This document shows, one piece after another, positions 2,423 through 45,583 of a stretch of 64,000 nucleotides of DNA; the stretch's first letter is position 1; every line of letters starts with the position of its first letter. The notes under the pieces are model-generated. The model ran no database searches. It was not told the origin of the DNA and saw only the letters and a program-made list of their open reading frames with translations. Origin of the DNA: Salidesulfovibrio onnuriiensis (GTDB taxonomy: Bacteria; Desulfobacterota; Desulfovibrionia; Desulfovibrionales; Desulfovibrionaceae); the NCBI RefSeq assembly GCF_008001235.1, contig NZ_CP040751.1, positions 789,001-853,000 of the forward strand, in the 5' to 3' direction. The translations under genes and the position numbers were made by a program.

Positions 2423-2544
2423 GCCCTGCTCCCCTGCGAAGGTCATTGAACGAATTGTTGCAAGTGTTTATATTATATGGAAAGCGCAAAAAGTCAAACA
2501 TGCGCTTGGATACAGCTTCCCCGAAGCGGCGACCCGCCTGCGCC

Positions 2545-2619
2545 AGTCAAGAGTCTTTTTCTTCCCCGTGGCTTCCTTTTGCCGCCCGGTTTTATCCGGG
2601 CCGGAAAAGCGGCGGTATG
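2545..2619 (+). promoter_or_regulatory. Shared upstream element, copy A (before the tail adaptor gene)
   Basis: This 75-bp stretch lies 40 bp before the ATG of the podovirus-like adaptor gene. It aligns without gaps to 36341..36415, which lies 33 bp before the tail nozzle gene, with 60 of 75 positions identical by my count. The best conserved blocks are GTCTTTTT, TCCTTTTGCCG and GGAAAAGCGG. Inside this copy CCCGG-TTTTAT-CCGGG can form a small hairpin, but copy B cannot form it. The function is unknown. A dedicated promoter, activator site or leader for virion genes is an inference from position. Confidence 0.6.
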
Positions 2620-2659
2620 CTTGCCCGTATCATTACGACCGCAACCGCAAGGAGGAACC

Positions 2660-3241
2660 ATGGCCGACAGTATCATCGAAATATGCAACAACGCCCTGCA
2701 AGATCTGGGGGAGGATCCGGTCATGTCCCTGACGGACGACTGCAAGGCCGCCCGCCTGTGCAACCAGCGCTGGGCCTCGGTCCGGGACGCGGTGCTTCGG
2801 GCGCATCCCTGGAACTGCTGCCAGGCGCAGGCCGAACTGGCAGCCGGGGTGAAGACGCCCCTGTGGCGGTGGGAGAGGGAGTACCCCCTGCCCACGGACT
2901 GCCTGCGGGTCATCGAGGTGGTGGGCGGGGGCGGAGCCGAAGTCCGGAATTGGGAAATTCAGGGGGCCGTCATCCTGTGCAGCGAGGATGCTCCCATCTA
3001 TCTCGCCTATGTGCGCAGGGAGGTGGACCCCAAGAAATACGACTCCCTGCTTTCGGAAACCCTTTCCGCCCGGCTGGCGGCGACCCTGGCCTATCCCCTG
3101 TCGGGCTCCACCTCCCTGGCAAATGCCTTTTGGGCCGCGTATCAGGACAAGCTTTCCGAGGCCCGTGGGGTGGATGCGCGCGAAGGGATCCCCGCATCCG
3201 TGCGCATGACCGGTTGGCTTTCGGCTAAGGTGGGTAGTTAG
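2660..3241 (+). CDS. Podovirus-like tail adaptor (tail tubular protein A, T7 gp11-like)
   Basis: The product is about 193 residues. Its opening (IIEICNNALQDLGEDPVMSL), the tract with CNQRWASVRDAVLRAHPWNC and the later LPTDCLRVIEV are the typical pattern of T7 gp11-like tail tubular A proteins, which form the ring joining portal to tail nozzle in short-tailed phages. ATG 2660 follows AAGGAGGAACC, a strong ribosome site, so upstream in-frame starts are unlikely. The gene stands alone: no capsid, portal or nozzle gene flanks it. Its likely partner, a nozzle-like gene, lies at 36449 behind the same kind of upstream element. It may be a displaced virion gene that is still used or a relic. Its intact frame favours use. 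Confidence 0.72.
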   Translation: MADSIIEICNNALQDLGEDPVMSLTDDCKAARLCNQRWASVRDAVLRAHPWNCCQAQAELAAGVKTPLWRWEREYPLPTDCLRVIEVVGGGGAEVRNWEIQGAVILCSEDAPIYLAYVRREVDPKKYDSLLSETLSARLAATLAYPLSGSTSLANAFWAAYQDKLSEARGVDAREGIPASVRMTGWLSAKVGS

Positions 3242-16894: not shown

Positions 16895-17302
16895 CTACGC
16901 CTGGGGCGTTTCCTGAGAGGGGCGGAAAATGAACACGGGCAGTTCCGCCTGGGAAGTCCATTCGCTGCCGCGCTTGGTGGTCACGGACAGGACGTGTCTG
17001 CCTTCCTGGGTCACGGCCAGGCCCGGGAGCTGGAAATTGAGTTTGTGGAGCATGGTACCCGGACTGGCCACTTCCTGCACCCCGAGGGTTTCGATTTTCC
17101 CGTCCGGGTGGGTCAGCTGCAGGGCCACGGTAAAGGGTTCCGCGTCTTCAAGTTCCCACATGCTCCCCACATACAGGGGTGGGAGGGTGGCCGGCAGGTT
17201 CTGGACCACGGCGTGTTCTATGGAACGGATAAAGGAGGTGGCCCCGGTTTCCCGGTCCACAATGACGTCGCTACAGATAAGGGCGTAAAGCAGTCGTGCC
17301 AT
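16895..17302 (-). CDS. DUF6941 family protein
   Basis: The product is 135 residues. The pattern (LLYALICSDVIVDRETGATSF, LYVGSMWELED, GTMLHKLNFQLPGL, VLSVTTKRGSEW) fits the DUF6941 family of uncharacterised, probably beta-rich proteins, recognised from memory. It has no signal peptide, membrane segment or catalytic motif that I can name. Its ATG follows AAAGGAAAGAGC and lies 18 bp after the S24 repressor stop, so the two form one leftward operon. A role connected with what the repressor controls is inferred from this arrangement only. Confidence 0.65.
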   Translation of the reverse strand: MARLLYALICSDVIVDRETGATSFIRSIEHAVVQNLPATLPPLYVGSMWELEDAEPFTVALQLTHPDGKIETLGVQEVASPGTMLHKLNFQLPGLAVTQEGRHVLSVTTKRGSEWTSQAELPVFIFRPSQETPQA

Positions 17303-17320
17303 GCTCTTTCCTTTGGTGGG

Positions 17321-18067
17321 TTATTTTCTGGTCATGTCGCTCCACGCCCATACCACGTTGCCGCCGATGGCGCGGGTGATGTCCCCGTCGTAATCGCGTT
17401 CGAGCCTGTAGGTCATGGGCGGGAATTCCTTGCTGTTGTCGGAATAGAAAATCAGTTCGATGTCGTCGTCCAGGCGCTTGGTGTTGACCCGCTTGACCAT
17501 GACGCCGCCTTCCTGACCGGGCTCGCAGACGAGCATGATCTTTCCGGCCGGGGTGGGGTCTCGGTCGTTGCGGTCCACGAGGACGATATCCCCTGGGTGC
17601 AGGGTCGGGACCATGGACATCTCGTTCTTGCCCACCTGGACCGCCACCAGGTTGGAGCGGAACCGCACGGATTCGTGGTGCCGCCAGACCAGCACCCAGC
17701 TTTCGATCTTGTCTTCGGGGATCAGGCCCGGGCCGGCGGCAACAGGGGATGCGGCCAGGGGGACGGCCAGGTAGTCCTCCGGAACCGGGTCAAAGGATTC
17801 CTCGCCGCTGGAAAGCTTGGTGGGCGAAACAAAACAGACTTCCATGGCCGCGTCCGCCGGTTCGTCGGGGAAGGACACCGCCGCGTCAAGCCCGTCAAGG
17901 ATCTTGCCCAGGGAGTCGGCATTGAGTCCGCGCTCCCGCTTGAGAAAGCGGTTCAGTTGCGAAGGGTCCACTCCCAGTTCGTCGGCCATGCGTTTGTTGT
18001 TGGAGAATCGCCGTCCTTTTCCCACTCGGGCCAGAAGCGCTTCGCGCACATCATCGGTGAAGCCCAT
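17321..18067 (-). CDS. Phage-type repressor with HTH and S24 (LexA/CI-like) peptidase domain
   Basis: The product is about 248 residues. The N-terminal helix-turn-helix lies at residues 20-60 (NKRMADELGVDPSQLNRFLKRE). The C-terminal S24 domain has the nucleophile Ser in NEMSMVPTLHPGDIVLVDR and the general-base Lys in GGVMVKRVN, so the self-cleavage pair is present. Such repressors keep prophage or defence genes silent and are inactivated during the SOS response. ATG 18067 follows AGGGAG at five bases; an upstream ATG at 18142 lies inside the divergent promoter region. It is divergent from the DUF5675 gene, the normal layout of a repressor and its target. Confidence 0.88.
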   Translation of the reverse strand: MGFTDDVREALLARVGKGRRFSNNKRMADELGVDPSQLNRFLKRERGLNADSLGKILDGLDAAVSFPDEPADAAMEVCFVSPTKLSSGEESFDPVPEDYLAVPLAASPVAAGPGLIPEDKIESWVLVWRHHESVRFRSNLVAVQVGKNEMSMVPTLHPGDIVLVDRNDRDPTPAGKIMLVCEPGQEGGVMVKRVNTKRLDDDIELIFYSDNSKEFPPMTYRLERDYDGDITRAIGGNVVWAWSDMTRK

Positions 18068-18087
18068 GTATGCTCCCTTATTCGAGA

Positions 18088-18123
18088 ATTCTTCAGTAGG
18101 GTTAATCATATTTTTGGAAGAAT
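18088..18123. promoter_or_regulatory. Inverted repeat in the divergent control region, candidate repressor operator
   Basis: ATTCTTC (18088-18094) and GAAGAAT (18117-18123) are perfect inverted copies 22 bp apart. A second, overlapping pair, GTCTA (18124-18128) and TAGAC (18161-18165), brackets the rightward promoter. Both lie between the S24 repressor and the DUF5675 gene. Binding by the repressor is inferred from position. Confidence 0.4.
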
Positions 18124-18148
18124 GTCTAAAGCTTTTTGTCAAAACCTA

Positions 18149-18178
18149 TTGACTAACAAATAGACATTTGGCTAATAA
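18149..18178 (+). promoter_or_regulatory. Candidate promoter of the DUF5675 operon
   Basis: TTGACT (18149-18154) and TAATAA (18173-18178) are separated by 18 bp, 36 bp before the preferred ATG 18214. The hexamers are close to consensus. TAGAC of one inverted repeat lies inside the spacer, so a bound repressor would block polymerase. Confidence 0.6.
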
Positions 18179-18213
18179 TGAAACTGCGTGAGGGCACAAC
18201 CCGTGGAGGAATT

Positions 18214-18618
18214 ATGTTGCCAGTAGTGGAAATAACACGACTTGAGGAAGGTGAAGCGGGTACCATCGGCGCGCTTCGATTAAACAAACAATTGATATGT
18301 CTGACTCTTGAGCCTCCCGACAGGGAAAACGCCAGAAATGTGTCAAGTGTTCCGGCACAGCAGTATCGCTGCTCCAGGGTCCGTTCCCCGAAATTCGGGG
18401 AGACGTTCGAGGTCAACGACGTGCCGGGGCGTTCCTCCGTGCTCTTTCATCCGGGGAACGTGGTGGAGGATACCCGGGGGTGTTTTCTTCTCGGCCGGCA
18501 TGTGGGCGCGCTGCGCGGTCGACGGGCCCTGATGGCCTCGGGCGAGGCTTTTCGGGAGTTTCTGGCCCTGCTGGAGGGCGTGGATTCGTTTCATCTGACC
18601 ATACGTGAAGAGTATTAG
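18214..18618 (+). CDS. DUF5675 family protein (phage-associated)
   Basis: The product is about 134 residues. The pattern TIGALRLNKQLICLTLEPPDREN, SSVPAQQYRCSRVRSPKFGETFEV, VPGRSSVLFHPGN and DTRGCFLLGR is that of DUF5675, a family frequent in prophages and possibly a cell-wall or lysis-related enzyme; its activity is unproven. The conserved His in LFHPGN and Cys in RGCFLLG are kept. GTGGAGG before ATG 18214 decides the start. It is the first gene of a two-gene operon driven from the repressor region. Confidence 0.75.
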   Translation: MLPVVEITRLEEGEAGTIGALRLNKQLICLTLEPPDRENARNVSSVPAQQYRCSRVRSPKFGETFEVNDVPGRSSVLFHPGNVVEDTRGCFLLGRHVGALRGRRALMASGEAFREFLALLEGVDSFHLTIREEY

Positions 18619-18627
18619 GGGGCTTTG

Positions 18628-18846
18628 ATGCAACAGCATATATGCCTGAAGGGCGCAAAGGACATTTGCTATGCGGTGGGAGAGAATCCCAAGGAAATAA
18701 CCTCGCTGGTGAAATTGCACGGGTTGCCCGCCTGGAAGCGGGCCAATCGGGGGCAGTGGCGGGCTCTGCCCGAGGATCTGCGGCGCTGGGTGCGGGCTCA
18801 GCGGGACAAGAATATTGGCCGGTATCTGTATGGCGAGATCAGCTGA
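18628..18846 (+). CDS. Small helix-turn-helix protein, excisionase- or AlpA-like
   Basis: The product is 72 basic residues. The layout KDICYAVGENPKEITSLVKL, HGLPAWKRANRGQWRALP, EDLRRWVRAQRDK resembles the winged helix of excisionase, AlpA and terminase-small-subunit-like proteins. It starts nine bases after the DUF5675 stop, with GGGGG upstream. It could be a DNA-binding regulator or a packaging-related protein of the control island. The family assignment is by pattern only. Confidence 0.55.
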   Translation: MQQHICLKGAKDICYAVGENPKEITSLVKLHGLPAWKRANRGQWRALPEDLRRWVRAQRDKNIGRYLYGEIS

Positions 18847-18850
18847 TGTT

Positions 18851-19573
18851 TTAGGAGACCTGGTGGCGTATGCTCCAGGAGCCATTGATGCCGTCCGGCC
18901 TGAGGTCGGGCGGCATTTCTATTCTGACGCCGTTGCCGTCGGTTCGGCCGGTAAGGTGCATGTCGGCGGCGCGGAACGACTGTTCCATGCGCTGTATCCG
19001 GAGCAGGGTGTCGGGTGGCGGTGTTTTGGCGGAGCGCAGGGGCAGGGGGGGGCGAATTTTCGCGGCTCGTGTCTGTAATTCGACTTTCTTTTCTGGTGAA
19101 TGTTTGACAAATGACTTTTCAAAATGAGTTCTTTCGGGAGTTATGTTTGCCGGATGACTTTTTTGTCGTGGTAGTTCCGTGGTGCCCAGCATGGCTACTT
19201 CCATAATTATGGGCTCGGGGGCGGTTTCCAGCGTGGGGCTGGGCAGGGGGGCGATACGAAGGGTTTTCAGGGGGGCGGCGGGCGTATTTTGCTCGGCCAG
19301 CAGGGTTGTCTGCGGCTCCTCAGCCTTGTTTCGATCCGTGTCCGGACCTATGAACCAGGCCAGTTTTTCCTTGATGACCATGTCCGGGGTCTTGTTGTTG
19401 GCTGCCAGCTCATAGGTGTATTCGCCCACGGTGTACACCGTGCCGATATACTGGGCCGGGCCCGTGAGCACGAAACCGCTGGCCCCCAGCAGGGCGCTGA
19501 GCACGAGGCAGCCGGAGAGCGGCAGCACGGTCGTGGCTATGAGTGCGCAGTTGCGCAGGGTGCTCCACTTCAT
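18851..19573 (-). CDS. Lipoprotein of unknown function with DUF3568-like N-terminus
   Basis: The product is 240 residues. It has a lipobox (TTVLPLSGC), followed by a hydrophobic stretch and the segment QYIGTVYTVGEYTYELAANNKTPDMVIKEKLAWFIG. This resembles DUF3568-type lipoproteins and is common in this group. The C-terminal 140 residues are Pro- and Ser/Thr-rich and look disordered. An eight-C run within the frame (19045-19052 region) is read through without a break. It converges with the small HTH gene. The function is unknown. Confidence 0.65.
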   Translation of the reverse strand: MKWSTLRNCALIATTVLPLSGCLVLSALLGASGFVLTGPAQYIGTVYTVGEYTYELAANNKTPDMVIKEKLAWFIGPDTDRNKAEEPQTTLLAEQNTPAAPLKTLRIAPLPSPTLETAPEPIIMEVAMLGTTELPRQKSHPANITPERTHFEKSFVKHSPEKKVELQTRAAKIRPPLPLRSAKTPPPDTLLRIQRMEQSFRAADMHLTGRTDGNGVRIEMPPDLRPDGINGSWSIRHQVS

Positions 19574-19642: not shown

Positions 19643-21015
19643 TTATTTGCCCCGGAGGCTCGACTGTCGAAGGCTTGACGCCTGCTTGTTGGTGACCAGG
19701 AATGTCAGCCCATAGACCGAGTCCAACAGGTTCCCCCGTGATGGGGAGAGATTGTAGAGCTCCTTGCCCGGTTCCAGCGAAGTGATGACTGTCCGTCCGA
19801 TGACGTGGCGGCCCTCGTCACCGAACATGAATTGGGTTTTGACGCCCCACATGGTCTGGAAGACCACGGGTTCCCCGTCGCGCTCCCCGATGTAGAGCAT
19901 GATGTGGCCCGGCGAACGGATCAGGGTCAGGAACGGGATGCCGTGTTCTCTCAGCGCCCGTTTCTTGTTGGCGCGACCGAGGCCCTTGAGCTCCGTGATG
20001 CTTCCTTCGTTATATTGCTGGCTGGAATTCCTGGGCAGGTAGATGCCGAAGGGGGCCATGAGGTCCATGAGGGTTGCGGAGCAGTCCCTGTCTTCATACA
20101 GGCCCCCCAGCCGTAAGGCCGCCCGAGCATGGCGTTGGCCAGCTTGGCAAAGGTGCGCGGGGTGGCGGGCAGGGGCATGAGCTCGGCATCCGTGCGGCAG
20201 ATGTCCGCCTCCACGGCCACGGCGTTTCCCTGGGCGTCGCGGACGGGAATAAGGGTTTTGAAACAGCCGTTGTCCGGGCGTTGCGCCAGGGGCAAGACCG
20301 TGCCGATGTTGGCGGTGAACCGGAATCGGTCCTGGATGTCGCGTACCGGAACCTCATCCCTGGTGACGGCGATCATGGCCGGGGCGTTGAAGGCGTTCAT
20401 GAATTCGCTGTCGGTCCAGGCGATGTCGCGTACCGGCACCCAGCCGAAGGTGAACCGGGATTCCACGAACACCCATTGCCCGCTTTTGCTGATGTGCTCG
20501 GCCCGGAGCGGAGTTCCCGCCAGCACCTGGGAGTTCTGCATGTAGTCGAAGGGAAAGCCTTCGCCGGGCTTCCGGAAGTCCCAGAACACGGGTTCCCGGG
20601 TGGGCAGGCTGCGCATGCTCGTGTTGGTCACGGCGATGCAGGGGCGGCTCATGCTCGGATAGGCGTCCTTTCGTGCCTCTTCGGCCACCATCCGCATCCA
20701 TTCCGGATTCCGTTTCAGGGTGTTTTGTCCGAAGATTTCCTTGTTCGAATAGTGCGTCAGCGCCCAGTAGGCCGCGTCCTCCTTCACGGGCTGGAAGTCC
20801 GGAGCCCAGGGGCCGTAATGTTTGCGTAGGAACCGTGCGTACATCCCGGCCTGAAGCCCGGGGGAAAGCAGCGGCGCATCGGCGTCGAGGCCGTGGTAGG
20901 CGCCTGCGTCCTGGGGCAGGGTGTCCAGGTCGCGGATCATGCCCGGCCTGGGCATGGCGCAGGCGGAAACTAGCAGAATGGACAGCAGGCAGAAGGCATT
21001 ACAAATATGTTTCAT
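19643..21015 (-). pseudogene. SH3 / NlpC-P60 family lipoprotein hydrolase, frame broken at a six-G tract
   Basis: Two overlapping frames together encode one SH3-NlpC/P60 protein. The first (from ATG 21015) has a lipobox (LLVSACAM), the N-terminal domain of this family and two SH3-like domains (SGQWVFVESRFTFGWVPV), and reaches LGRPYGWG. The second frame supplies the catalytic core LYEDRDCSATLMDL, with the nucleophile Cys, and RSPGHIMLYIG, with the His. The switch lies at six C at 20103-20108 (six G in the coding strand). One added G restores a 457-residue protein reading YGWGGLYEDRDC. It would cleave peptidoglycan peptides in the periplasm. Whether the break is real or a sequencing error cannot be told here. 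Confidence 0.82.
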
Positions 21016-21083
21016 GATTACCTCACGGTACATAAGGGACGAAATCCGGAGTGCTGTCAATGGTCAGCCGAAAACCGCCCCTC

Positions 21084-36275: not shown

Positions 36276-36340
36276 GCCTGTTTTCCTGTTCTGCGGGCAA
36301 CCGGTTATCCTGATTCCCCTTTCGCGTCCAGCCGTCCCCC

Positions 36341-36415
36341 TGTCAACAGTCTTTTTTTTCCCTGTGACGTCCTTTTGCCGTGCTTTTTTGTCCGGCCGGG
36401 AAAAGCGGGGGTAAG
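36341..36415 (+). promoter_or_regulatory. Shared upstream element, copy B (before the tail operon)
   Basis: This 75-bp stretch is 33 bp before the ATG of the tail nozzle gene and aligns without gaps to 2545..2619, with 60 of 75 positions identical. The conserved blocks are AGTCTTTTT, TCCTTTTGCCG, GTCCGG and GGAAAAGCGG; the middle differs most. It has no obvious sigma70 hexamers. It probably marks the start of the tail operon, since the gene to the left is transcribed away from it. Confidence 0.6.
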
Positions 36416-36448
36416 GTGCCTGAAACCTTCTCGGAACAGGAGCAGAGC

Positions 36449-38536
36449 ATGAGTATTGCCACACCGGCGTTGACGAATTTCACCTCCGGGGAATTGAGCC
36501 CCAGGTTGGAAGGCCGTACCGACCTGGCCAAGTATTTCAACGGCTGCAGGACGCTGGTCAACTTTCATGTCCATCCCCACGGGGGAGCCACCCGGCGTTC
36601 CGGGTTCCGGTTCGTGGCCGAGGCCTTGGGCCGGGAAAAGCCGGTCCTGCTCATTCCCTTCGAGTTCAACCCGGAGCAGACCTACATCCTTGAGCTGGGA
36701 GAGGACGCCAGCGGCCGGGGTTGCATGCGGGTCTTCACCGATCACGGCCTGGTGCTGGACAGCCAGGGACAGGTCTATGTGAAGGACATGCCCTATAGGG
36801 CCGAGGAGTTCTCCCGGTTGCGCTACGTCCAGTCCAACGATGTGCTCATTTTGGTGCATGCCAAGCACCCGCCGCGCCGGCTGACCCGCACCGGGCACGA
36901 CAAATGGAAACTGGAGGAAGTGTTTTTTCTGGGCAAGCCCGAGGCCTGGAAGGAGGATAACTATCCCTCCTGCTGCTGTTTTTTCGAGGAGCGCCTGGTG
37001 CTGGCCGCCACGCCGGACAAACCCGGCACCATCTGGTTTTCCCGTACCGGCGACATGAACGATTTCCGGCTCAAGACCTGCGAGGTGCCGCAGGAGAAGT
37101 GGCGCGACCTGCTCATCAAAGGTTCCAAGCGGGGCCGGGCCAACGACACCTTCGTGGTGCTCATGGGTGGACTGTTCGACAAGTCCGCGGGCATCCGGGG
37201 GCTCAATGCGAAAGGCGAGGATTGCTATTACCGGTACAAGGGAAATCGCGTTTTTGCCCCGGACACCAAGGATCAGACCGTGACCTTCGTGCACAATCCG
37301 TCTTCGGACAGCCATATCGAGTCCATTTGGGATGCATCCGGCGTCCTGCGAGACGGATTTTGGGATTGTCTCAAGGCGGGCGACCGCGTGGAGGCCCCTG
37401 CAGGGGACAAGCCCTTGGATGACGACGCCATCGAAGTGACCCTGGCCGGGCGCGAGGGCAACAACATCGAATTTTTGGTGCCCAAGGCCCGGCTTTGGGT
37501 GGGCACCACCGGGGGGGAATGGACCGTGGGCGGCGCCCGGCTCGGGGCCACCACGCCAGACAATATCAAGGCCAACCACGAGGGCTCCTGCGGCTCCTCG
37601 GGGGCGCGTCCGGAAACCGTGGGCTTTTCCACCCTGTTCATCCAGCGTTCGGGCACCAAGATTCGCTGTATGTCCTATCGCTATGATTCGGATGCCTATT
37701 CCTCTTCGGACCTGACCCTGCTTTCCGAGCACATCACCGGGCCGGGCGTGTCGCAGCTGGCCTATGTGCAGGAGCCGGATTCCACGGTTTACGGCATCCG
37801 CAAGGACGGAACCCTGGTGGCCCTGACCTATGAGCAGGACGAGGAAGTCATGGCCTGGACCCGGCTGGAGACTCTGGGGAGGGTGGAGTCCATTGCCTCG
37901 ATCCATGACGACAGCACCCGGCGCGACGAATTGTGGGCCGTGGTGCGAAGGTCGGTGAACGGCAGCGAGCGGCGCTACATCGAATATCTGGAGGGAGGTT
38001 TTGACGGGCCGGTGGAAGAGGCCTTTTTCGTGGACAGCGGGCTTTCCTACCGGGGCGAGCCCATAGAGTCCCTTTCCGGGTTGCAGCACCTGGCGGGCGA
38101 GATGGTCAGCGTGCTTGCGGACGGTGCCGTGCAGCCGGACCGGAAGGTGGCTGCCGACGGCAGCATCGAATTGGACCGGCCTGCGCGCGTGGTGCATGCA
38201 GGGCTTCCCTATAGGTCGATGTTGCAGCCCATGCGCCTGGATGCCGGGAGCGAGCGGGGTACGGCCCAGACCAAGCGCAAGCGTATCATTCGTGTTTCGG
38301 CTCGATTTCACAAGACCCTGGGCGGCCGGATCGGACCGTCCGAGGAGAGGCTTGAACCGGTGTATTTTCGGTCTGCGTCCGCGCCCATGGGCAGCCCCCC
38401 GGGGCTTTGGTCCGGGGACAAGGGAATCCGTTTCCCCAAGGGATGGGATCGCGACGGCGTCCTGACCATCGTGCAGGATCAGCCTTTGCCCATGACCGTG
38501 CTCATGATCGTACCGGAAGTGGTCATCAACGAATAA
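36449..38536 (+). CDS. Podovirus-like tail nozzle protein (tail tubular protein B-like)
   Basis: The product is about 695 residues. The start ALTNFTSGELSPRLEGRTDL, followed by KYFNGCRTLVNFHVHPHGGA and RRSGFRFVAEAL, is the widely shared N-terminus of short-tail phage nozzle or stabilising proteins, equivalent to T7 gp12. A beta-rich body follows (TPDKPGTIWFSRTGDMNDF, CGSSGARPETVGFSTLFIQR). It would form the tube that contacts the cell and carries the fibres. AGGAG precedes ATG 36449. It is the first gene of a rightward operon and follows copy B of the shared element. The frame is intact over 2.1 kb. Confidence 0.78.
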   Translation: MSIATPALTNFTSGELSPRLEGRTDLAKYFNGCRTLVNFHVHPHGGATRRSGFRFVAEALGREKPVLLIPFEFNPEQTYILELGEDASGRGCMRVFTDHGLVLDSQGQVYVKDMPYRAEEFSRLRYVQSNDVLILVHAKHPPRRLTRTGHDKWKLEEVFFLGKPEAWKEDNYPSCCCFFEERLVLAATPDKPGTIWFSRTGDMNDFRLKTCEVPQEKWRDLLIKGSKRGRANDTFVVLMGGLFDKSAGIRGLNAKGEDCYYRYKGNRVFAPDTKDQTVTFVHNPSSDSHIESIWDASGVLRDGFWDCLKAGDRVEAPAGDKPLDDDAIEVTLAGREGNNIEFLVPKARLWVGTTGGEWTVGGARLGATTPDNIKANHEGSCGSSGARPETVGFSTLFIQRSGTKIRCMSYRYDSDAYSSSDLTLLSEHITGPGVSQLAYVQEPDSTVYGIRKDGTLVALTYEQDEEVMAWTRLETLGRVESIASIHDDSTRRDELWAVVRRSVNGSERRYIEYLEGGFDGPVEEAFFVDSGLSYRGEPIESLSGLQHLAGEMVSVLADGAVQPDRKVAADGSIELDRPARVVHAGLPYRSMLQPMRLDAGSERGTAQTKRKRIIRVSARFHKTLGGRIGPSEERLEPVYFRSASAPMGSPPGLWSGDKGIRFPKGWDRDGVLTIVQDQPLPMTVLMIVPEVVINE

Positions 38537-38550
38537 AAGGAGAGGTTTGT

Positions 38551-39072
38551 ATGGGATATTCGGGAGCGGCGGGCAGCGCCGCCGGAGGCTCAGCCGCGGG
38601 CGGTGCGGGCGGCGTGTGGGGCATGGTTTTCAGTACCGCCATGAACCTTGTGCAGCAGAAACTCCAGGCTGATGCGCAGAACAGCGCCTGGAAGGATGCG
38701 GAAGAGGCTGCGGAAAATCAGGCGTTGCTTCAGGAGGAGCAGGCCAAGGGAGAAGCGGCCGAGTCGTTGCTTCAGTCCAGACGGGAAATTTCCCGATACC
38801 GCAAGGAAGCGGCCCAGCGCAGGGCGGCGACCCGCGCCGAATGGGGTGGAGCAGGGCTGGCCAACAGCGGTTCCGTGGCGCTCGGACAGGCCGCCGATGC
38901 GGTCCAGGACAGGCTTGATGCCGACGACATGCGTTTCAATGCCCAGCAACAGGCGCAGGGCATCCTGTCCCGGGGACGGGCCAAGGCCAATGCCACGCGC
39001 ATCGGCGGGGGCGCGGACATCAAGAAAAGCACTCTTTCTCTCGGCTCCGGAATTTACGGGCCGAGGAGGTAA
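38551..39072 (+). CDS. Internal virion/core-like protein (T7 gp14-like)
   Basis: The product is about 173 residues. A Gly/Ala/Ser-rich hydrophobic start (GYSGAAGSAAGGSAAGG, then WGMVFSTAMNLVQQKL) is followed by a long alanine- and charge-rich helix (EEAAENQALLQEEQAKGEAAE) and the segment RAEWGGAGLANSGS, ending AKANATRIGGG. This pattern is common in podovirus internal core proteins that are injected to form the channel through the envelope. Sequence similarity is low, so the call rests on pattern and on its place between nozzle and fibre genes. AAAGGAGAGG is the ribosome site. Confidence 0.6.
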   Translation: MGYSGAAGSAAGGSAAGGAGGVWGMVFSTAMNLVQQKLQADAQNSAWKDAEEAAENQALLQEEQAKGEAAESLLQSRREISRYRKEAAQRRAATRAEWGGAGLANSGSVALGQAADAVQDRLDADDMRFNAQQQAQGILSRGRAKANATRIGGGADIKKSTLSLGSGIYGPRR

Positions 39073-39074
39073 CA

Positions 39075-40006
39075 ATGACGGTTTCATCCACCATTTCGCG
39101 TACGGCGTACTCCGGCAACGGCTCCACCAGGAATTTCGCAATACCGTTCATGTTCATCAAGGACAGTGACCTGGAGATCGTGCTTCGCGCCGCTTCCGGT
39201 ACGGAGGCGCAGCTTTCCATTTCCACGGACTATACCCTGTCCGGCGCAGGAGAACAGCACGGGGGCGTTTGTTCTTTGAACTCGGCTCCCAAAGCCGGAG
39301 AAGTGCTGGTCATCAGGCGCAACCCGGCAATGATCCAGGAGGTCGACTACCTGGAAAACGACGCCTTTCCTGCCCAAAGTCATGAATCCGCCCTGGATCT
39401 GCTGACCATGATCTGCCAGGCGCTCTCCGAGCGTTTGGACCGGACGGTCTCCCTGAGGTTGTCCTCGGCCGTGACCGGCGTGGAGATCCCCGATCCCGAT
39501 CCGGGGACCGCCCTGGTCTGGAATGATTCCGGTGACAATCTGACAAACAAGAGCCTTGTCGCCCAAGGGCTGGTGGGGTTGCCTTTGGAGATATCCCAGG
39601 GGGGCACCGGCTGCACCTCCGCTGCCGACGTCCTTGCCGCCTTTGGAGGCGAGCCTGCGGATGCCTCCCTGCTCAAGAACGCGAAGCAGGGCCAATCTCT
39701 GGAGGCGGCCTTCCTGGAGCCCTATTTCGAAATAACCGACGCTGCTGAGCCCCCCATCAACCTTGCTGCGCGCAATCGCTTCAAGTGGATATTGAGCGCG
39801 GACCGGACCTTTCCGGATTTGAATCCGGCAGCCGAAGGGGAGTGGCATTTCAACGTTTATTCAGGTGGGCACGCCCTGACCCTGGCCGCCGAGTGGGGGG
39901 CAAGATTGTCGGGGAGATCCAGGCCGGAGCCTCCATGCACCGCCTGTGCCTCGTCAACGACGGCACGAGCCTGACCCTCTACATCGACAACAAAGGAGGC
40001 GCATGA
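39075..40006 (+). pseudogene. T7 gp17-like tail fibre with N-terminal attachment domain, frame broken at a six-G tract
   Basis: The first frame starts MTVSSTISRTAYSGNGSTRN, with a fold seen in the head-binding domain of T7-like fibres (FAIPFMFIKDSDLEI, YTLSGAG, VLVIRRNPA, YLENDAFPAQSHESALDLLTMI). Ordinary sequence continues to TLAAEW, after which it reads nonsense. A second frame gives the expected end KIVGEIQAGASMHRLCLVND, LTLYIDNKGGA and stops at 40006. The switch is at six G at 39895-39900. One more G makes a 310-residue protein. The next ATG overlaps the stop of the second frame (ATGA), which supports that frame as the true end. It could be a sequencing error, slippage or programmed frameshift. 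Confidence 0.8.
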
Positions 40007-42360
40007 TGGCCCGGACACCGAAACGGGGGCATGTGGGAGGAGGGGCGGCCAAGGTGTATCCGTACGAGATTCAGCAGAGCGCCTTTTTTCCGGGCGTGAA
40101 CGGGGTTTCATATCTGGAACGCACCATTGCAGCCAGCTCCGCAGATCGCACAAAGGCCACGTTTTCCTGCTGGGTTCGTCCGAATCAGGCGGCTACGTCG
40201 AACTTCCCGTGGCTGTTTGGCGCAGGGCCAACAAGCGCTGTCATGAATCCACGTTTTGGTATCTGGCTTGGGAGGGATACGGTAACGACATATGGGCTCA
40301 TGATTTATGAAGCGAACTCCGCGGGAACCGTTAGGGTCGATTATCGGGTGGACAACTCCAAGCTTTTTGCCGATCCGGCTGGATGGTATCATATTTTCGT
40401 TGTTATCAACAGCAACGAAGCAATATCTGCAGACCGGATAAAAGCCTATATCAACGGTGCTCAGGTTTCGTTGATCGTACACAAGGCAGTGCCTTCGGGG
40501 CATGAGATACTTTGGGGAGATTGTACGCAGCCGCATCTTTTTGCTGGTGTACTTGCAGCAACTGCTACGAGCGCCATTTCGCATCCCAACTCGTATTATG
40601 CGGAAGTCGTTCACATTGATGGCCAAGTTCGTACTCCCGATGATTTCGGGCAATGGTCAAAGCTCATCCCATCCCTTTGGGTTCCCAAACAATACGTTGG
40701 GACTTATGGACGCAACGGGTTCCACCTCGACTTTGCCAATGGCGCGGCCCTTGGTAACGATGTGTCCGGTAACGGCAACCACTTCTCTGCGCAGGGTGCA
40801 CCGTATCAGCTTCTTGATACACCGACCAACACGCATTGCGTTTGGAACAACCTTGTGTACGAATGGAACACCGGAAAGGGTGTCTACACCAACGGCAACC
40901 GCACGGCTTCAACCTCTGCAGACCAGTCCTTCTCAATGTCGCGAGGGACAGGCTTATACTCTGCTGTCGAGGGTGTTTATTGGGAATTGGCTCTCGATTC
41001 ACTCGTGGATAATACCAATTACTACTACGGACTGTGTGCATATGATGCACCCTACGGCAACATGATTGCAGAAGACGGCTATTTTACATGCAGCGCAACT
41101 GGCTACTGGAAAGGTACCGTGTTGACCAATTGGGCGGCAAATCCCAATCTCAAGACAGGCGATGTTATACAGTTTGCAGCAAAAGATAACAAAATGTGGG
41201 TCGGGAAAAATGGCGCGTGGTTGGAAGGAGGCAACCCTGAGAACGGTACAAATCCGCTCATGACCGACTTACCCGATTGGATTGTCCCGTTCGTTACGCC
41301 ATACAAAACGAACGAAATCACCACGCTGCATTCTGGTGCTACGGGGTTCACCTACACGCCGCCCTCTGGCTTCAAGACATTATGTACGGCCAACCTGCCG
41401 GAGCCGGAAATCCTTAACCCGGCAACCGGCAACGACATCGCACTGTATCAGGGCAATGGAACCACATTGGATATCAGCGGCCTCAACATGGCCCCGGATT
41501 ACGCCAATATCAAAGACTGTTCGGCCTCGGCCCACTGGCTCATGTGCGACACGGTACGTGGTGCCACCAAAGCCTTGGCTACCAGCTACAGCGGCGCGGA
41601 GTCTACGGAAGCTACGTCTATCACGGCGTTCAATTCCGACGGGATTTCCCTCGGCAACTACAGCCGGGTGAACAACAGCGGCGCTAACTTCTTGGCGCAG
41701 TTCCTCAAGCGAGGGCCTGCGTTTGGCTTTGACATAGTGCCCTATAACGGTGCGGGTCTTGCTGGCTTGCAGATTGCGCACAACTGCGGCGGCGCGCCGG
41801 AACTTATCATCGTCAAATGCACGTCCGGTTCGCAGAATTGGGGCGTCTACCACGTTGCTGCTGGGGCCACCAAGTATGGGCTGTTGAATGACACCCGGGC
41901 TTTTAACTTATCCTCTTCTCTTTGGAACGACACAGAACCAACCGCAACACACTTTACAGTAGGTGATTGGACCGGTGTAAACCAAGACGGCCAGCAGTAC
42001 GTTGCTTATATCTTCCGCTCCGTACCCGGATTTTCCAAGGTGTTCAGTTACGAAGGAAACGGAAACGCAGACGGCCCGTATACAGACCTCGGATTCAGGC
42101 CAAAGGCCATAATGCTTAAAGATTCGGCGGCTGCGGTGCCTTGGTACTTTTTCAACACGGAGGTTAATCCCATAAACCCTGTTGAAGATTACCTGTACCC
42201 GAACGCTGAGAACGCAGAACAGACCGCAGCAGGACTCCTCACATGTACGAGTACAGGATTCAAGGTAAGCCGAGTCTCTGGTGGCATCAATACAAACGGT
42301 GACACCATCATAGGCATTGCCTGGGCTGAACAACCTTTCAAATACAGCAACGCTTTTTAG
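40003..42360 (+). CDS. Large fibre/receptor-binding protein with lectin-like (LamG/SPRY) domains
   Basis: The product is about 785 residues. The N-terminal 220 residues have a LamG-like fold pattern (RTKATFSCWVRPNQA, FGIWLGRDTVTTYGLMIYE, WYHIFVVINSNE, VVHIDGQVRTPDDFG). The middle carries SPRY-like strands (GVYWELALDSL, GDVIQFAAKDNKMWVGKNG), and the C-terminal region repeats IVKCTSGSQNWGVYH, typical of the DUF7483-like domain of phage fibres. It would bind surface glycans. Two ATGs overlap the upstream stop, with AAAGGAGG ahead. By eye it is AT-richer than its neighbours over much of its length, with many rare codons, which suggests replacement by exchange with phages. Confidence 0.7.
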   Translation: MMARTPKRGHVGGGAAKVYPYEIQQSAFFPGVNGVSYLERTIAASSADRTKATFSCWVRPNQAATSNFPWLFGAGPTSAVMNPRFGIWLGRDTVTTYGLMIYEANSAGTVRVDYRVDNSKLFADPAGWYHIFVVINSNEAISADRIKAYINGAQVSLIVHKAVPSGHEILWGDCTQPHLFAGVLAATATSAISHPNSYYAEVVHIDGQVRTPDDFGQWSKLIPSLWVPKQYVGTYGRNGFHLDFANGAALGNDVSGNGNHFSAQGAPYQLLDTPTNTHCVWNNLVYEWNTGKGVYTNGNRTASTSADQSFSMSRGTGLYSAVEGVYWELALDSLVDNTNYYYGLCAYDAPYGNMIAEDGYFTCSATGYWKGTVLTNWAANPNLKTGDVIQFAAKDNKMWVGKNGAWLEGGNPENGTNPLMTDLPDWIVPFVTPYKTNEITTLHSGATGFTYTPPSGFKTLCTANLPEPEILNPATGNDIALYQGNGTTLDISGLNMAPDYANIKDCSASAHWLMCDTVRGATKALATSYSGAESTEATSITAFNSDGISLGNYSRVNNSGANFLAQFLKRGPAFGFDIVPYNGAGLAGLQIAHNCGGAPELIIVKCTSGSQNWGVYHVAAGATKYGLLNDTRAFNLSSSLWNDTEPTATHFTVGDWTGVNQDGQQYVAYIFRSVPGFSKVFSYEGNGNADGPYTDLGFRPKAIMLKDSAAAVPWYFFNTEVNPINPVEDYLYPNAENAEQTAAGLLTCTSTGFKVSRVSGGINTNGDTIIGIAWAEQPFKYSNAF

Positions 42361-42366
42361 GAGGGA

Positions 42367-42885
42367 ATGATGCAACTCAGACAGGAAACCTACTGGCTGC
42401 TGCCGAGAAACGGGCGAACCTACCGCGTGCTACCCCGGGAACAAATCAAAGGCCAGCCCATCCCGACCACGTGGGCCGGGGTTGGCCAGGCCCGGGCAAA
42501 AGAGCTGGGCGCGGTGGAGTGTCACCGTGATATGGTGCCGCCGTATCACTCCATCCCCGCAGAGACGGATCCCTGGACTGTGGAAGAGGCCGACGGGGTG
42601 AGGCATTATCGGCTGGATATGGCCATGCTGGTTCATGATGGTGAAGCCGAAAATGCGGCTTTGGCGGACAGCCTGCGCAGACAGCGCGATGAAAAGCTCA
42701 AAGAGAGCGACTGGGCCGTCCTGGCCCTGGAACGCCGCATCCGTCTGGCTGGCGGTACCGGGGACGGCGTGCCGTCCCTAGAGGAAAACTTGGCCCAGTG
42801 GGATGCCTACCGGGAAGCCCTGTGCACCCTTCCGGACTCCGCCGGATTTCCCCAGGAAGTGCAATGGCCTGAAAGGCCCGAATAG
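42367..42885 (+). CDS. Phage tail assembly chaperone-like protein
   Basis: The product is about 172 residues. The C-terminal part, RDEKLKESDWAVLALERR, then LAQWDAYREALCTLP and EVQWPERPE, matches the phage tail assembly chaperone family (Phage_tail_APC), which is placed after fibre genes and helps fold or trimerise them. The N-terminal part (YWLLPRNGRTYRVLP) is not recognised. AGGAGGG precedes two possible ATGs (42367 and 42370). It ends the first part of the tail operon. Confidence 0.78.
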   Translation: MMQLRQETYWLLPRNGRTYRVLPREQIKGQPIPTTWAGVGQARAKELGAVECHRDMVPPYHSIPAETDPWTVEEADGVRHYRLDMAMLVHDGEAENAALADSLRRQRDEKLKESDWAVLALERRIRLAGGTGDGVPSLEENLAQWDAYREALCTLPDSAGFPQEVQWPERPE

Positions 42886-43072: not shown

Positions 43073-43891
43073 ATGTCTCAGTTCAACTACCAGATCAAGG
43101 ACATCAGCCGCGCGCTGACCGCCGTCATCACCCTCAACTCCGGCGGCTCCGAGCCGTCCACCACCTATCCGTTCATGCTTTGGATGGATACCAGCGTCAC
43201 TCCGGCCGTGCTCAAGCAGCGCACCGAGGCCGACGACGCCTGGATCGAGATCCTCAAGGCCGACAACATCCCCTTTGATGACGGCCAGACTCAGATTAAC
43301 GCGGAAACCGTGCAGCAGGCCATCGAGAAGATCAAACAGCTCATCGACGCCCATGCGGCCCGTACCGACAACCCTCACCAGGTGACTGCTGAGCAGTCCG
43401 GGGCCTATACCAAGGCCGAGGTCGACGCGTTGCTGAAAAAAGCGGGCGCGGCACCTATCGGTTCCGTCACGGCCCTGGCTTCCTCCGTGATTTCGGAAGG
43501 CTGGCTGGCCTGCGACGGCGCGGAAGTCTCTCGTACGGACTATGCCGATCTGTTCGGCGTTCTCGGCGAGACCTTTGGCGTGGGCGACGGTTCCACCACC
43601 TTCAACCTGCCGGACCTGCGTGGAGAATTCATTCGCGGTCTGGACAGCGGTCGTGGCGTGGATGCTGCCCGAGAGCTGGGTTCCCAGCAGGATTATGCAA
43701 TGGAAGATCATAATCACAAAATGCGTCTTGTTCAAAAAAGCGGCTCTGGTTCTGGCTGTGCAGGAAATGCTAGTTTTGACGCATATTCGAGTGAAACAGT
43801 GCAATCCACTGGTTTGTCGGGCTCTCCCTACAATGTTGCAAGTGAAACCCGTCCGCGCAACGTGGCCCTGACCTACATCATCAAATATTAA
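43073..43891 (+). CDS. Tail collar-domain fibre, paralogue 1
   Basis: The product is 272 residues. The N-terminal module of about 60 residues is shared by all four paralogues (ITLNSGGSEPSTTYPFMLWMDT, KQRTEADDAWIEIL). A helical spacer follows (VQQAIEKIKQLIDAH), then DNPHQVTAEQSGAYTKAEVD, a segment frequent in phage fibres, and the collar domain (GWLACDGAEVSRTDYADLFGVLG and FNLPDLRGEFIRGLDSGRG). The tip region from about 200 is unique, and the end RPRNVALTYIIKY is shared. GGAG with seven-base spacing precedes ATG. Collar proteins attach or terminate phage tail fibres. Confidence 0.82.
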   Translation: MSQFNYQIKDISRALTAVITLNSGGSEPSTTYPFMLWMDTSVTPAVLKQRTEADDAWIEILKADNIPFDDGQTQINAETVQQAIEKIKQLIDAHAARTDNPHQVTAEQSGAYTKAEVDALLKKAGAAPIGSVTALASSVISEGWLACDGAEVSRTDYADLFGVLGETFGVGDGSTTFNLPDLRGEFIRGLDSGRGVDAARELGSQQDYAMEDHNHKMRLVQKSGSGSGCAGNASFDAYSSETVQSTGLSGSPYNVASETRPRNVALTYIIKY

Positions 43892-43961
43892 CCGTTTCCC
43901 ATTCAAGGGCCGTCTCGGGGCCGCCCGCCTTTGCAACATAAACACTCAAGGAGTGAAATAC

Positions 43962-44645
43962 ATGTCCCAATTCAATTACCCGTCTAACAACCTGGGCCAG
44001 GCCCTGGACGCCATCATCACCCTGAACTCCGGCGCTTCCGAACCTCCGGCCACCGCGCCGTACATGCTCTGGATGGACACCAGCAAGACCCCGGCCGTCA
44101 TGCGCCAGCGCAACGGCGACGACACCGGCTGGATCGACCTGTTCGCCGCCAACGCCGTGGCGGCCGTTCCCGTGGGTACGGTCAACGCCATTGCCGGCGC
44201 GGCCATTCCCGACGGCTGGCTGGAATGCGATGGTGCGGAAGTCTCCCGCACCCAGTATGCCGACCTCTTCGGTCAGATCGGCACCATCTATGGCGTGGGC
44301 GACGGTTCCAGCACTTTCAACCTGCCGGACCTGCGCGGGGAATTCATTCGCGGTCTGGACAACGGTCGCGGTGTGGATGCCTCCCGTGCGCTCGGTTCCG
44401 AGCAGGGCGATGCCATCCGCAATATTACCGGCCGTTGGAAGAACTCTCAGATCAACACCCTCCCTGGCAATGCTATTCCGGAGAATTCCGGTGTGTTCTC
44501 CAAGTCTGGTAGCTACGCATACAAATACGATGGGGGAGCCCGGACCATCTCCGAATGGATGAACTTCGATGTTTCCACTCAGGTTCCAACCGCCGAGGAA
44601 AACCGTCCCCGCAACGTGGCAATGAAATACATCATCAAATACTAA
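43962..44645 (+). CDS. Tail collar-domain fibre, paralogue 2
   Basis: The product is 227 residues. It has the shared N-terminal module (ITLNSGASEPPATAPYMLWMDT, RQRNGDDTGW) but lacks the helical spacer and joins directly to the collar domain (PDGWLECDGAEVSRTQYADLF, FNLPDLRGEFIRGLDNGRG). Its tip (ITGRWKNSQINTLPGN) differs from the other copies, and the end is RPRNVAMKYIIKY. CAAGGAG lies nine bases before ATG 43962. It is separated from paralogue 1 by a short GC-rich spacer that holds a degenerate hairpin, GGGC...GCCC, near 43907-43925. Confidence 0.82.
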   Translation: MSQFNYPSNNLGQALDAIITLNSGASEPPATAPYMLWMDTSKTPAVMRQRNGDDTGWIDLFAANAVAAVPVGTVNAIAGAAIPDGWLECDGAEVSRTQYADLFGQIGTIYGVGDGSSTFNLPDLRGEFIRGLDNGRGVDASRALGSEQGDAIRNITGRWKNSQINTLPGNAIPENSGVFSKSGSYAYKYDGGARTISEWMNFDVSTQVPTAEENRPRNVAMKYIIKY

Positions 44646-44660
44646 CCACATTCCGTTTAA

Positions 44661-44680
44661 GGGCCGCCTGCGGGCGGCCC
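44661..44680 (+). terminator. Hairpin after collar paralogue 2
   Basis: GGGCCGCC-TGCG-GGCGGCCC is a perfect eight-base-pair stem with a four-base loop, 16 bp after the stop. It is followed by GTCTTTT. It may act as a weak terminator or attenuator, or protect RNA ends between cassettes. Confidence 0.65.
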
Positions 44681-44714
44681 GTCTTTTCAACAGCAATACG
44701 CAAGGAGAAAACAT

Positions 44715-45521
44715 ATGGCTCAGTTCAATTTTCCGTCCGACATCCTGCAGGCCTTGGACGCCCTCAATACCCTGAACTCAGGATCTGTCGAACCTCCGGC
44801 CACCGCGCCGTACATGCTTTGGATGGATACCGGTGCCGCCCCGGCCGTGCTCAAGCAGCGCAACGGCGACGACACCGGCTGGAACGTGCTGCTCACCGCT
44901 TCCAACACATCCTTTGACGACAGCACCGCCCAACTCGGCGCATCCGACGTGCAGGCGGCCATCGAGAAGATCAAGCAGTCCCTGGACACCATCCTGAACA
45001 AGCCCGCCGATGTGCCTGTGGGCTCCATCAACGCCCTGGCCGTTTCCACGGTTCCGGCAGGTTGGCTGGAGTGTGACGGCGCAGCCGTCTCCCGCACGGA
45101 ATTCGCTGCCCTGTTTGCCCTGCTCGGCACCAAGTTCGGCGCTGGCGATGGTTTCAGCACCTTCAATCTGCCGGATCTGCGCGGCGAGTTCATTCGCGGT
45201 TGGGACAACGGCCGTGGCGTGGATGCGGACCGTGTATTAGGGACTTCCCAGTTGGCGGGCGTTGGAGAGCATGACCACTCGCTTCTCGTGAACATGTCGA
45301 CTTGGGACGGTGGCGGCGGCCACGGTGGGTATGCCTATAACTATTCCGTGGGCAGCAATCACTTCCGGGGCCTGACTGGTGTAAACCAAGCTATCCACGG
45401 TTATAGCGATACGGTTGGTGGAGCTGGTGACTATGCTGGCCAGCCGCTGGTTAAAATGGCACAGGCTGATGCCGAAACCCGCCCCCGCAACGTGGCCCTC
45501 ATGTATGTGATCAAGTACTAG
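44715..45521 (+). CDS. Tail collar-domain fibre, paralogue 3
   Basis: The product is 268 residues. It has the shared N-terminal module (NTLNSGSVEPPATAPYMLWMDT), a helical spacer (VQAAIEKIKQSLDTIL) and the collar domain (GWLECDGAAVSRTEFAALFALLG, FNLPDLRGEFIRGWDNGRG). It then has a unique tip with GEHDHSLLVNM and a Gly/His-rich stretch (DGGGGHGGYAYNYSVG), as found in fibre tips that bind metal or sugars. It ends RPRNVALMYVIKY. CAAGGAG precedes ATG 44715. Domain order is otherwise as in paralogue 1. Confidence 0.82.
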   Translation: MAQFNFPSDILQALDALNTLNSGSVEPPATAPYMLWMDTGAAPAVLKQRNGDDTGWNVLLTASNTSFDDSTAQLGASDVQAAIEKIKQSLDTILNKPADVPVGSINALAVSTVPAGWLECDGAAVSRTEFAALFALLGTKFGAGDGFSTFNLPDLRGEFIRGWDNGRGVDADRVLGTSQLAGVGEHDHSLLVNMSTWDGGGGHGGYAYNYSVGSNHFRGLTGVNQAIHGYSDTVGGAGDYAGQPLVKMAQADAETRPRNVALMYVIKY

Positions 45522-45536
45522 CCTTAATTACACTTA

Positions 45537-45554
45537 GGCCGCCTTCGGGCGGCC
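45537..45554 (+). terminator. UUCG-loop hairpin after collar paralogue 3
   Basis: GGCCGCC-TTCG-GGCGGCC forms a seven-base-pair stem closed by C and G around UUCG, the classic very stable tetraloop. Only a short ATTTAT follows, so it may act more as an RNA stability or pausing element than as a full terminator. Confidence 0.65.
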
Positions 45555-45583
45555 ATTTATCTACGGATATCCAAGGAGAAAAC

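Follow-up and report, generated by a model that had tools for sequence, protein, structure and literature searches.

Introduction

To our knowledge, gene transfer agents (GTAs) outside the Alphaproteobacteria are poorly known. Rapp and Wall reportedly described one in 1987, the Dd1 GTA of Desulfovibrio desulfuricans, as a short-tailed particle. The available parts of later papers cite this work and give a predicted TerS, Ddes_0720 (Table 1 of PMC6854486; PMC11841831, PMC9662315), and beyond that prediction we found nothing in them on regulation. Degenerate Desulfovibrio prophages have been suggested as possible GTAs (PMC6006170, available part), one short-tailed particle is reported from D. 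piger (PMC12724379, available part), and a literature search for Pseudodesulfovibrio together with gene transfer agent found no paper. For other hosts, the available parts of the sources state that RogA represses an activator operon and GafYZ activate the GTA genes of Caulobacter (PMC9632790), and that the FpGTA of Faecalibacterium, locus I of which occurs in 12 of the 12 genomes examined there, is called the first GTA-like element with podovirus-like morphology (PMC12946183). Here we analysed a 64,000-nucleotide stretch of the Salidesulfovibrio onnuriiensis chromosome (the window), which carries a phage-style control island made of genes for an S24-type repressor (REP), a DUF6941-like protein, a DUF5675 protein and a small helix-turn-helix (HTH) protein (HTHw), together with phage tail genes at a distance from it.

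Comparison of related genomes indicates that this island is probably the switch of scattered head, tail and packaging genes, that is, the regulator of a GTA-like particle, and the regulatory link from island to particle genes is well supported by that comparison. We put the probability of the full reading, in which the island would serve for control and lysis in a GTA-like system of podovirus origin whose dispersed genes are inherited vertically, at roughly 0.6.

Results

The control island and the dispersed particle genes

The window corresponds to bases 789001-853000 of a single-contig genome of 3.89 Mb (G000), which we compared with 59 genomes of the family (own genome included) and 36 genomes of the genus. 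Genes were called with our own script, which makes errors in high-GC loci, where some runs are plainly in wrong frames, and gene names are based on Pfam, PHROGs, tblastn or reading. The island contains the following features, in window positions:

16895-17302, minus strand: DUF6941-like gene behind REP, named via its orthologues
17321-18067, minus strand: REP, S24-type repressor (LexA/CI-like), 248 aa, with Ala-Gly, Ser and Lys present
18122-18142, no strand: candidate REP operator O1, ATGTCTAAAGCTTTTTGTCAA, with the core [AT]TGTC[TC]A found in 15/15 related intergenic regions
18149-18167, no strand: candidate REP operator O2, an imperfect match to TTGAC-N9-GTCA, overlapping the -35 box of the DUF5675 promoter
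18214-18618, plus strand: DUF5675, YkuD-fold protein by prediction and probable lysis enzyme (DUF5675 family match 3.5e-30)
18628-18846, plus strand: HTHw, small HTH protein (MerR/excisionase-like), 72 aa, candidate activator of the promoter R1 described below

REP matches Pfam Peptidase_S24 (5.5e-6) and a PHROG transcriptional repressor (1.8e-15). In an alignment of 14 sequences Ala111-Gly112 and Ser151 are invariant and Lys192 is present in 13, so that by sequence REP has the Ala-Gly site and the Ser/Lys dyad of an S24 self-cleaving repressor. Comparison of its sequence profile with solved structures gave nothing useful, and REP has no match among 50,697 phage records at E 1e-5. HTHw matches HTH_17 at 0.0025, below the cut-off, and a relative (L055) reaches 7.6e-12; it resembles excisionase and MerR types (phrog_66 0.0095; RacA 6.7e-4). 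A structure model of HTHw had a pLDDT of 56.9 and hence was not used in the fold search.

In the same genome we found one podovirus-type set of holin-like, terminase, capsid, portal, scaffold, tail tube and fibre genes, spread across 75 kb. The holin-like and TerL genes lie at 760.5-763.4 kb, those for the major head protein (phrog_3437, 5.8e-67), a T7-type portal (PF12236, 8.9e-155) and a scaffold-like protein at 769.7-774.0 kb, the island at 805.9-807.8 kb and the tail genes at 825.4-835.7 kb. The particle genes of G020 are nearly continuous over about 18 kb with few host genes interspersed, and those of G013 are more spread.

This arrangement has several features of a GTA. As far as sequence can tell, phage-derived head, portal, terminase and tail genes stand in the host chromosome, and their spread (75 kb, or 162 kb for the R1 sites) is too wide for packaging as one unit, related phages having about 35 kb. 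A portal of 66-73% identity occurs in 34/36 genus genomes and host neighbours are conserved, as vertical inheritance predicts, and the GTA-type portal is without an in-frame stop in 35/36, including G060, where it is in two overlapping pieces (61 and 69%). The contiguous genome with integrase of an active prophage is absent here, unlike in the compact prophages of the genus. A search of 184 kb around the set in the genome of the window with three prophage integrases gave no match (best E 0.37), replication genes not having been searched for.

One 83-bp promoter element precedes the dispersed blocks

Many particle blocks have a long common element upstream, R1, of 83 bp. Our sequence-only model of it was built from 11 aligned copies of four genomes and reads TGTCAA, about 52 bp, a TTNTCC-like box, 18 bp and TAnnnT. 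GTCAA does not vary among the 46 sites aligned, and the last part agrees with a sigma-70 -10 box, TAnnnT. E-values of R1 matches are rough by the search tool's own statement, and the scan of the 59 genomes ran under stricter filters.

The whole genome of the window holds eight strong R1 matches (E<=5.8e-11; next 0.15), all at 715.9-878.3 kb and therefore within 162 kb. Five are training copies; of the three new ones, two stand 21-50 bp before RHS genes (Pfam TEN_YD-shell 5.6e-20 and 8e-19) and the third is an orphan. Over the family we found 45 matches at E<1e-5 in 8/59 genomes of five genera (G029 9, G013 8, G000 8, G054 7, G004 5, G020 4, G046 3, G022 1), with the blocks of G029 on four contigs. 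A total of 34 are outside the training set, and 24 of these precede packaging, head, tail or lysis genes, namely those for holin-like protein, TerS (535 bp from its site in G029), TerL, capsid, portal block, orf75, scaffold, tail tube A/B and internal virion protein block. Another eight precede RHS or Ntox44 genes (two of them, in G054, by reading only), and the remaining two are an orphan and a site before a 380-aa gene of G013 that has 30 N-terminal residues in common with an RHS gene. R1 precedes RHS or Ntox44 genes in G000, G013, G029, G054 and G004. DUF5675-bearing compact clusters of other genera (L141-L145) have no R1 up to E 1.

The window itself contains two R1 copies with the following genes behind them:

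2544-2623, plus strand: R1 copy before the tail-tube A-like gene, R1 training sequence
2660-3241, plus strand: tail tubular protein A-like gene, 66.7% to the G013 gene at that position; the name rests on position and reading, the G013 counterpart being without a Pfam family
36339-36419, plus strand: R1 copy before the tail-tube B gene, R1 training sequence
36449-38536, plus strand: tail tubular protein B (phrog_376 1.3e-176; best phage matches annotated so, HTVC010P group)
38551-39072, plus strand: internal virion protein-like (phrog_418 6.6e-6)
39075-39974, plus strand: tail fibre with T7-type N-terminus (phrog_1640 1.1e-33; Phage_T7_tail 7.3e-4, below cut-off)
40003-42360, plus strand: virion/fibre protein with DUF7483 (library scans)
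42370-42885, plus strand: tail fibre assembly chaperone (Pfam Phage_tail_APC 7.6e-12)
43073-46654, plus strand: tandem tail-fibre genes at 43073-43891, 43962-44645, 44715-45521 and 45584-46654, the last by library scan and the first three by reading

The four tandem fibre genes have similar N-terminal parts and variable ends, and look like a store of alternative fibre tips. The two RHS/YD-shell genes behind R1 (G000:C1:714667-715818, minus strand, and 864275-865696, plus strand; L170, L074) share a core of about 48% identity, and their C-terminal ends are not alignable, as is the case in polymorphic toxins. Behind R1 in G004 stands an Ntox44 gene. The orphan R1 of the window's genome (G000:C1:878219-878300, minus strand; L075:5219-5300) is followed by a terminator-like repeat; about 250 bp separate it from the next gene, which reads as Lrp-like.

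The island, the promoter and the particle genes occur together

The preliminary description had proposed that the island could be the switch of scattered tail genes, with DUF5675 as a lysis-like product, and had named co-occurrence of the two in relatives as a check. The tail genes proved real and scattered, and part of a larger set that includes head and packaging genes and a promoter not noted earlier. Co-occurrence was found with this promoter: the eight R1-bearing genomes (E<1e-5) are all among the nine with a REP orthologue (at least 64% identity), and all eight have HTHw. HTHw of at least 50% identity is present in 10/59 genomes, the nine REP genomes and G027, and R1 <1e-5 in none of the 49 family genomes without it. 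G027 has weak R1 matches (1.9e-4), one of them upstream of its portal at 0.007. Fisher tests gave 2e-8 for R1 against HTHw and 4e-9 for R1 against REP plus HTHw, values that ignore shared ancestry and are for this reason not probabilities.

In the genus, HTHw is found in 35/36 genomes (as a fragment in one and with an internal TGA in another), the GTA-type portal in 35/36 and R1 (E<=0.01) in 31/36. HTHw and the portal are on the same contig in 22/36 genomes, at up to 65 kb in 9/22 and up to 395 kb in 21/22, with G090 as the exception unless its contig is circular. A holin-like gene lies 9 kb (L208) and 7 kb (L209) from the island; R1 precedes it in L209, and the model finds no site in L208. 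We considered DUF5675 as a marker of the regulon and rejected it, as G029 is without DUF5675 and has HTHw and nine R1 sites. Collectively, the linkage, the co-occurrence with a shared promoter and the same neighbours in intact prophages support the view that the scattered tail genes and the island are parts of one system.

Candidate REP operators lie at the HTHw operon promoter

The start codons of REP and DUF5675 are separated by 146 bp (18068-18213), in which the promoter TTGACT-N18-TAATAA of DUF5675-HTHw lies at 18149-18178 and ATTCTTC/GAAGAAT at 18088-18094 and 18117-18123. The repeat ATTCTTC/GAAGAAT was rejected as operator, being found in just 2/15 related intergenic regions. The second dyad, TTGAC-N9-GTCA, is exact in 10/15 of these regions and imperfect in the window. 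Much of what had been described for the island before is confirmed by these data: the S24 repressor with Ser and Lys, the DUF5675 and small HTH genes facing it across the promoter, and the lack of an integrase or structural gene next to the island. Its inverted repeat is present as described and is not the conserved element, and its DUF6941 assignment is backed by scores of relatives and not by one of the window protein itself.

An operator matrix run over 164 kb scored more than 20 bits only at the island's own region and inside ORF240 (808104), and did not find REP's conserved sites before the tail genes. The site in ORF240 (window 19104-19124) scores close to the island operators. Weaker sites, such as one of 14.3 bits at 832055 (fibre gene start), are not judgeable because the poorest training site has 9.2 bits. 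Direct control of the tail genes by REP is therefore not supported. By the standard set with the earlier proposal, that a repressor restricted to its own region would refute it, the operator scan speaks against direct control, and indirect control is the best reading. The conserved dyads sit at the promoter of the HTHw operon, where the repressor could control the gene of the candidate activator, and the sequences support a relay, in which REP would repress HTHw and HTHw would activate R1, over direct control.

DUF5675 probably has a lysis function and a podovirus origin

An AlphaFold2 model of DUF5675 (pLDDT 96.4) gave VIA alignments to Pgp2 (Z 11.0; 2.4 Å, 111 residues), Csd6 (10.3) and YkuD (9.9), with 43 rows of YkuD-type enzymes before the first unrelated row at Z 2.4. 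Foldseek alone was uninformative on this model (no match under 0.07), and the sequence profile against solved structures gave nothing useful. His79, Asn82 and Cys90 are invariant in 24 DUF5675 sequences, His79 and Cys90 being candidates for the catalytic pair of a YkuD enzyme. The model thus predicts a YkuD (L,D-transpeptidase-like) fold. Because of this predicted fold and the swap with phage lysozyme described next, DUF5675 is likely a cell-wall lysis enzyme, in agreement with the lysis-like role first suggested for it.

A compact prophage, separate from the scattered set, is present in five genomes of the genus. It combines TerL (57-69%), portal (25-29%) and capsid (46-64%) genes with tail genes and an HTHw-like gene, and in three of the five Pfam identifies an integrase (G004, G077, G071). 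DUF5675 (48-52%) is present in 4/5. In the fifth, G060, Phage_lysozyme (7.6e-14) takes the position of DUF5675 beside the same neighbour, and the holin is GTA_holin_3TM (9.1e-16). Furthermore, G029, without DUF5675, has Phage_lysozyme near its scaffold gene, and on viral contigs L328 and L329 an HTHw relative directly precedes a lysozyme gene. REP relatives (45-52%) are found in 11 viral contigs (IMG/VR), with a portal gene (L318) and an HTHw-like gene (L320) within 6 kb. In G036, G044, G045 and G002, DUF5675 likewise has particle genes of these kinds as neighbours, with no R1 there. Judged by these prophage and viral-contig neighbourhoods, DUF5675 and HTHw resemble genes from the lysis side of a podovirus.

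The island locus and its neighbours

REP of at least 64% identity is present in 9/59 family genomes, all of which have HTHw. REP, DUF5675 and HTHw stand together, with DUF5675 between, in seven (G000, G046, G004, G013, G054, G022, G020); in G028 about 8 kb separate REP from DUF5675 and HTHw, and G029 lacks DUF5675. Behind REP in the seven genomes is a DUF6941-like or aldolase gene, sometimes also a HEAT-repeat gene, and NlpC/P60 and HDOD neighbours at the island are common to genus members. By these comparisons the island is an old, vertically kept, chromosomal locus. The label DUF6941-like is used because only relatives score for the family (orthologue L042 6.2e-5, below cut-off; distant L066 3.6e-8, above it), the window protein giving zero match up to E=10.

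Several genus relatives (L042:10408-11382, L043:10344-11363, L206-L210) have the HEAT-repeat gene between REP and the DUF6941-like gene, where it is missing in the window and in L205. The NlpC/P60 gene by the island (window 19643-21060, minus strand) is apparently in two overlapping frames, with the N-terminal domains at 19951-21060 and the rest at 19643-20068; its orthologue L042:6518-7921 is called as a single gene. In G010, G015, G051 and G055 (L055, L057, L058, L069) a distant REP (43-48%) faces an HTHw-like gene (27-31%); these genomes are without portal and without R1 <1e-5, and have a parallel repressor/HTH pair.

Discussion

Our results suggest the following mechanism. REP would bind the two conserved dyads of the 146-bp region and keep itself and the DUF5675-HTHw operon low. 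Removal of REP, most simply by RecA-stimulated self-cleavage at Ala111-Gly112 in an SOS response, would allow DUF5675 and HTHw to be made. HTHw, alone or with a partner, would then switch on the R1 promoters and with them the holin-like, terminase, capsid, portal, scaffold, tail-tube and RHS genes, so that particles, presumably with host DNA as cargo, would form. Finally, the holin-like protein and the YkuD-fold DUF5675 enzyme would open the cell. This reading draws on features seen in the sequences: the gene set and the promoter that its blocks have in common, the operator-like dyads conserved between REP and DUF5675, the protease motif that is still intact, the YkuD fold predicted for DUF5675, and the co-occurrence and linkage.

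Several observations weigh against it. The co-occurrence is confounded by common descent, and R1 gave zero matches up to E 2 in the compact prophages of the genus. G028, the ninth REP genome and one with HTHw, has the right half of R1 only, G067 has a portal and one R1 match and no HTHw, and G065, G066, G075, G088 and G089 have HTHw and portal and no R1 match at 0.01. In G020 Arg replaces the catalytic Lys of REP (L049:9619-10374), and because of this substitution that REP may not be self-cleaving. In the window's genome two TerS queries found no TerS near the particle set, and TerL (G000:C1:762090-763407, L072) is read in two frames, i.e. frameshifted. That frameshift is lineage-specific or an assembly error; the TerL of G004 is open. 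G084, the nearest relative encountered (REP identity 95%), has HTHw and R1 and no portal in its genome. In the 160 kb examined it has no capsid and no TerL, tail tube B is reduced to 45 residues, and the scaffold gene contains a stop. The dN/dS ratios between G000 and G084, which are rough as dS is high, are nonetheless lowest for REP (0.020) and HTHw (0.016) among the compared island and particle genes. They are 0.05-0.17 for the holin-like, orf70, orf75 and tail-tube A genes, 0.35 for scaffold, 0.24-0.33 for fibres and 0.41 for one RHS gene, against a median of 0.133 for the other genes of the stretch (110 genes >50% identity). Because REP and HTHw are strongly constrained in G084 despite its particle-gene loss, they may serve something besides particle making, and the system may be failing in this branch though kept in the genus.

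The frameshifted TerL, the losses in G084 and the two-piece portal of G060, a probable frameshift, would all fit a decaying prophage, in which scattered genes and island are relics of one old podovirus prophage and its immunity region and nothing is made. Portals without an in-frame stop almost throughout the genus, the same promoter before dispersed blocks in eight genomes of five genera, and the dN/dS of the holin-like, orf70, orf75 and tail-tube A genes, rough as it is, make this quite improbable. We give equally little credence to the view that REP acts on itself and the DUF5675-HTHw operon only and has no functional link to the tail genes: it agrees with the restriction of strong operator-like sites to the island and ORF240 in the 164 kb scanned, but HTHw and DUF5675 are connected with the particle genes through linkage, co-occurrence and the order of genes in prophages.

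Two further explanations concern the regulators. REP and HTHw could form a pair of host regulators whose present targets lie elsewhere, for example in the R1-bearing RHS genes, with the particle genes as a shrinking part of the regulon. The constraint on the pair where portal and capsid are gone, and R1 before toxin-type genes in five genomes, speak for it; we hold it unlikely, as most new R1 sites (24/34) precede particle genes and the loss in G084 may be recent. Alternatively, HTHw may be an excision or DNA-packaging factor and no activator, in which case the reader of R1 would be a different host protein or RNA polymerase on its own. Its resemblance to excisionase/MerR-type proteins, the integrase next to its relatives in prophages and the R1 match of G067 are consistent with this role, which is nevertheless doubtful: HTHw is kept in nearly all genus genomes with no integrase found within 184 kb in that of the window, it tracks R1 across the family, and its viral relatives in L328 and L329 stand just before a lysozyme gene.

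If the relay under REP holds, the RHS/Ntox44-type toxins may be fired in the same burst as a scattered podovirus-derived GTA-like system, from one 83-bp promoter under a cleavable repressor and a small phage-derived HTH protein; this wider proposal is tentative and the odds are somewhat against it. If true, DNA-packing particles and polymorphic toxins would leave the lysing cell together. From the analysis come a defined repressor, a candidate for the activator, a promoter code that spans the genome and a list of parts, in a genus of which named strains are in culture. It also suggests a way in which a phage may be dismantled and turned into a host regulon, and DUF5675, a domain of unknown function, gains a testable enzymatic role.

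Among described phages, the HTVC010P-type Pelagibacter podoviruses are the best matches, among the 50,697 phage records, of portal (42-44%) and tail tube B (37-44%); they differ in being phages of about 35 kb with contiguous genes. The Dd1 GTA belongs to related bacteria and is likened here by description; a genome-contig scan for DUF5675 with one strict pattern turned up no D. desulfuricans. In FpGTA, too, the podovirus-type genes are divided between two loci, which are separated by about 125 kb in one strain (PMC12946183). Its particles have been shown, whereas those proposed here are predicted from genes, its host is Gram-positive, and the word promoter is absent from the main text of that paper. 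The PrtR-PrtN system of R/F pyocins resembles our locus in its self-cleaving repressor, the activator behind it, a conserved promoter box (P-box) and lysis genes in the programme (PMC8609362, available part); pyocins are tail-like, whereas our set includes head, portal and terminase genes and is dispersed, and PrtN and HTHw are likened by role only. RogA is stated, in the available part of the source, to be without the cleavage residues that REP keeps (PMC9632790), and here one 83-bp promoter stands before many separate blocks. By the anatomy of the relay, RogA-GafYZ shares with our reading a LexA-like repressor over an activator operon whose products turn on GTA genes (PMC9632790).

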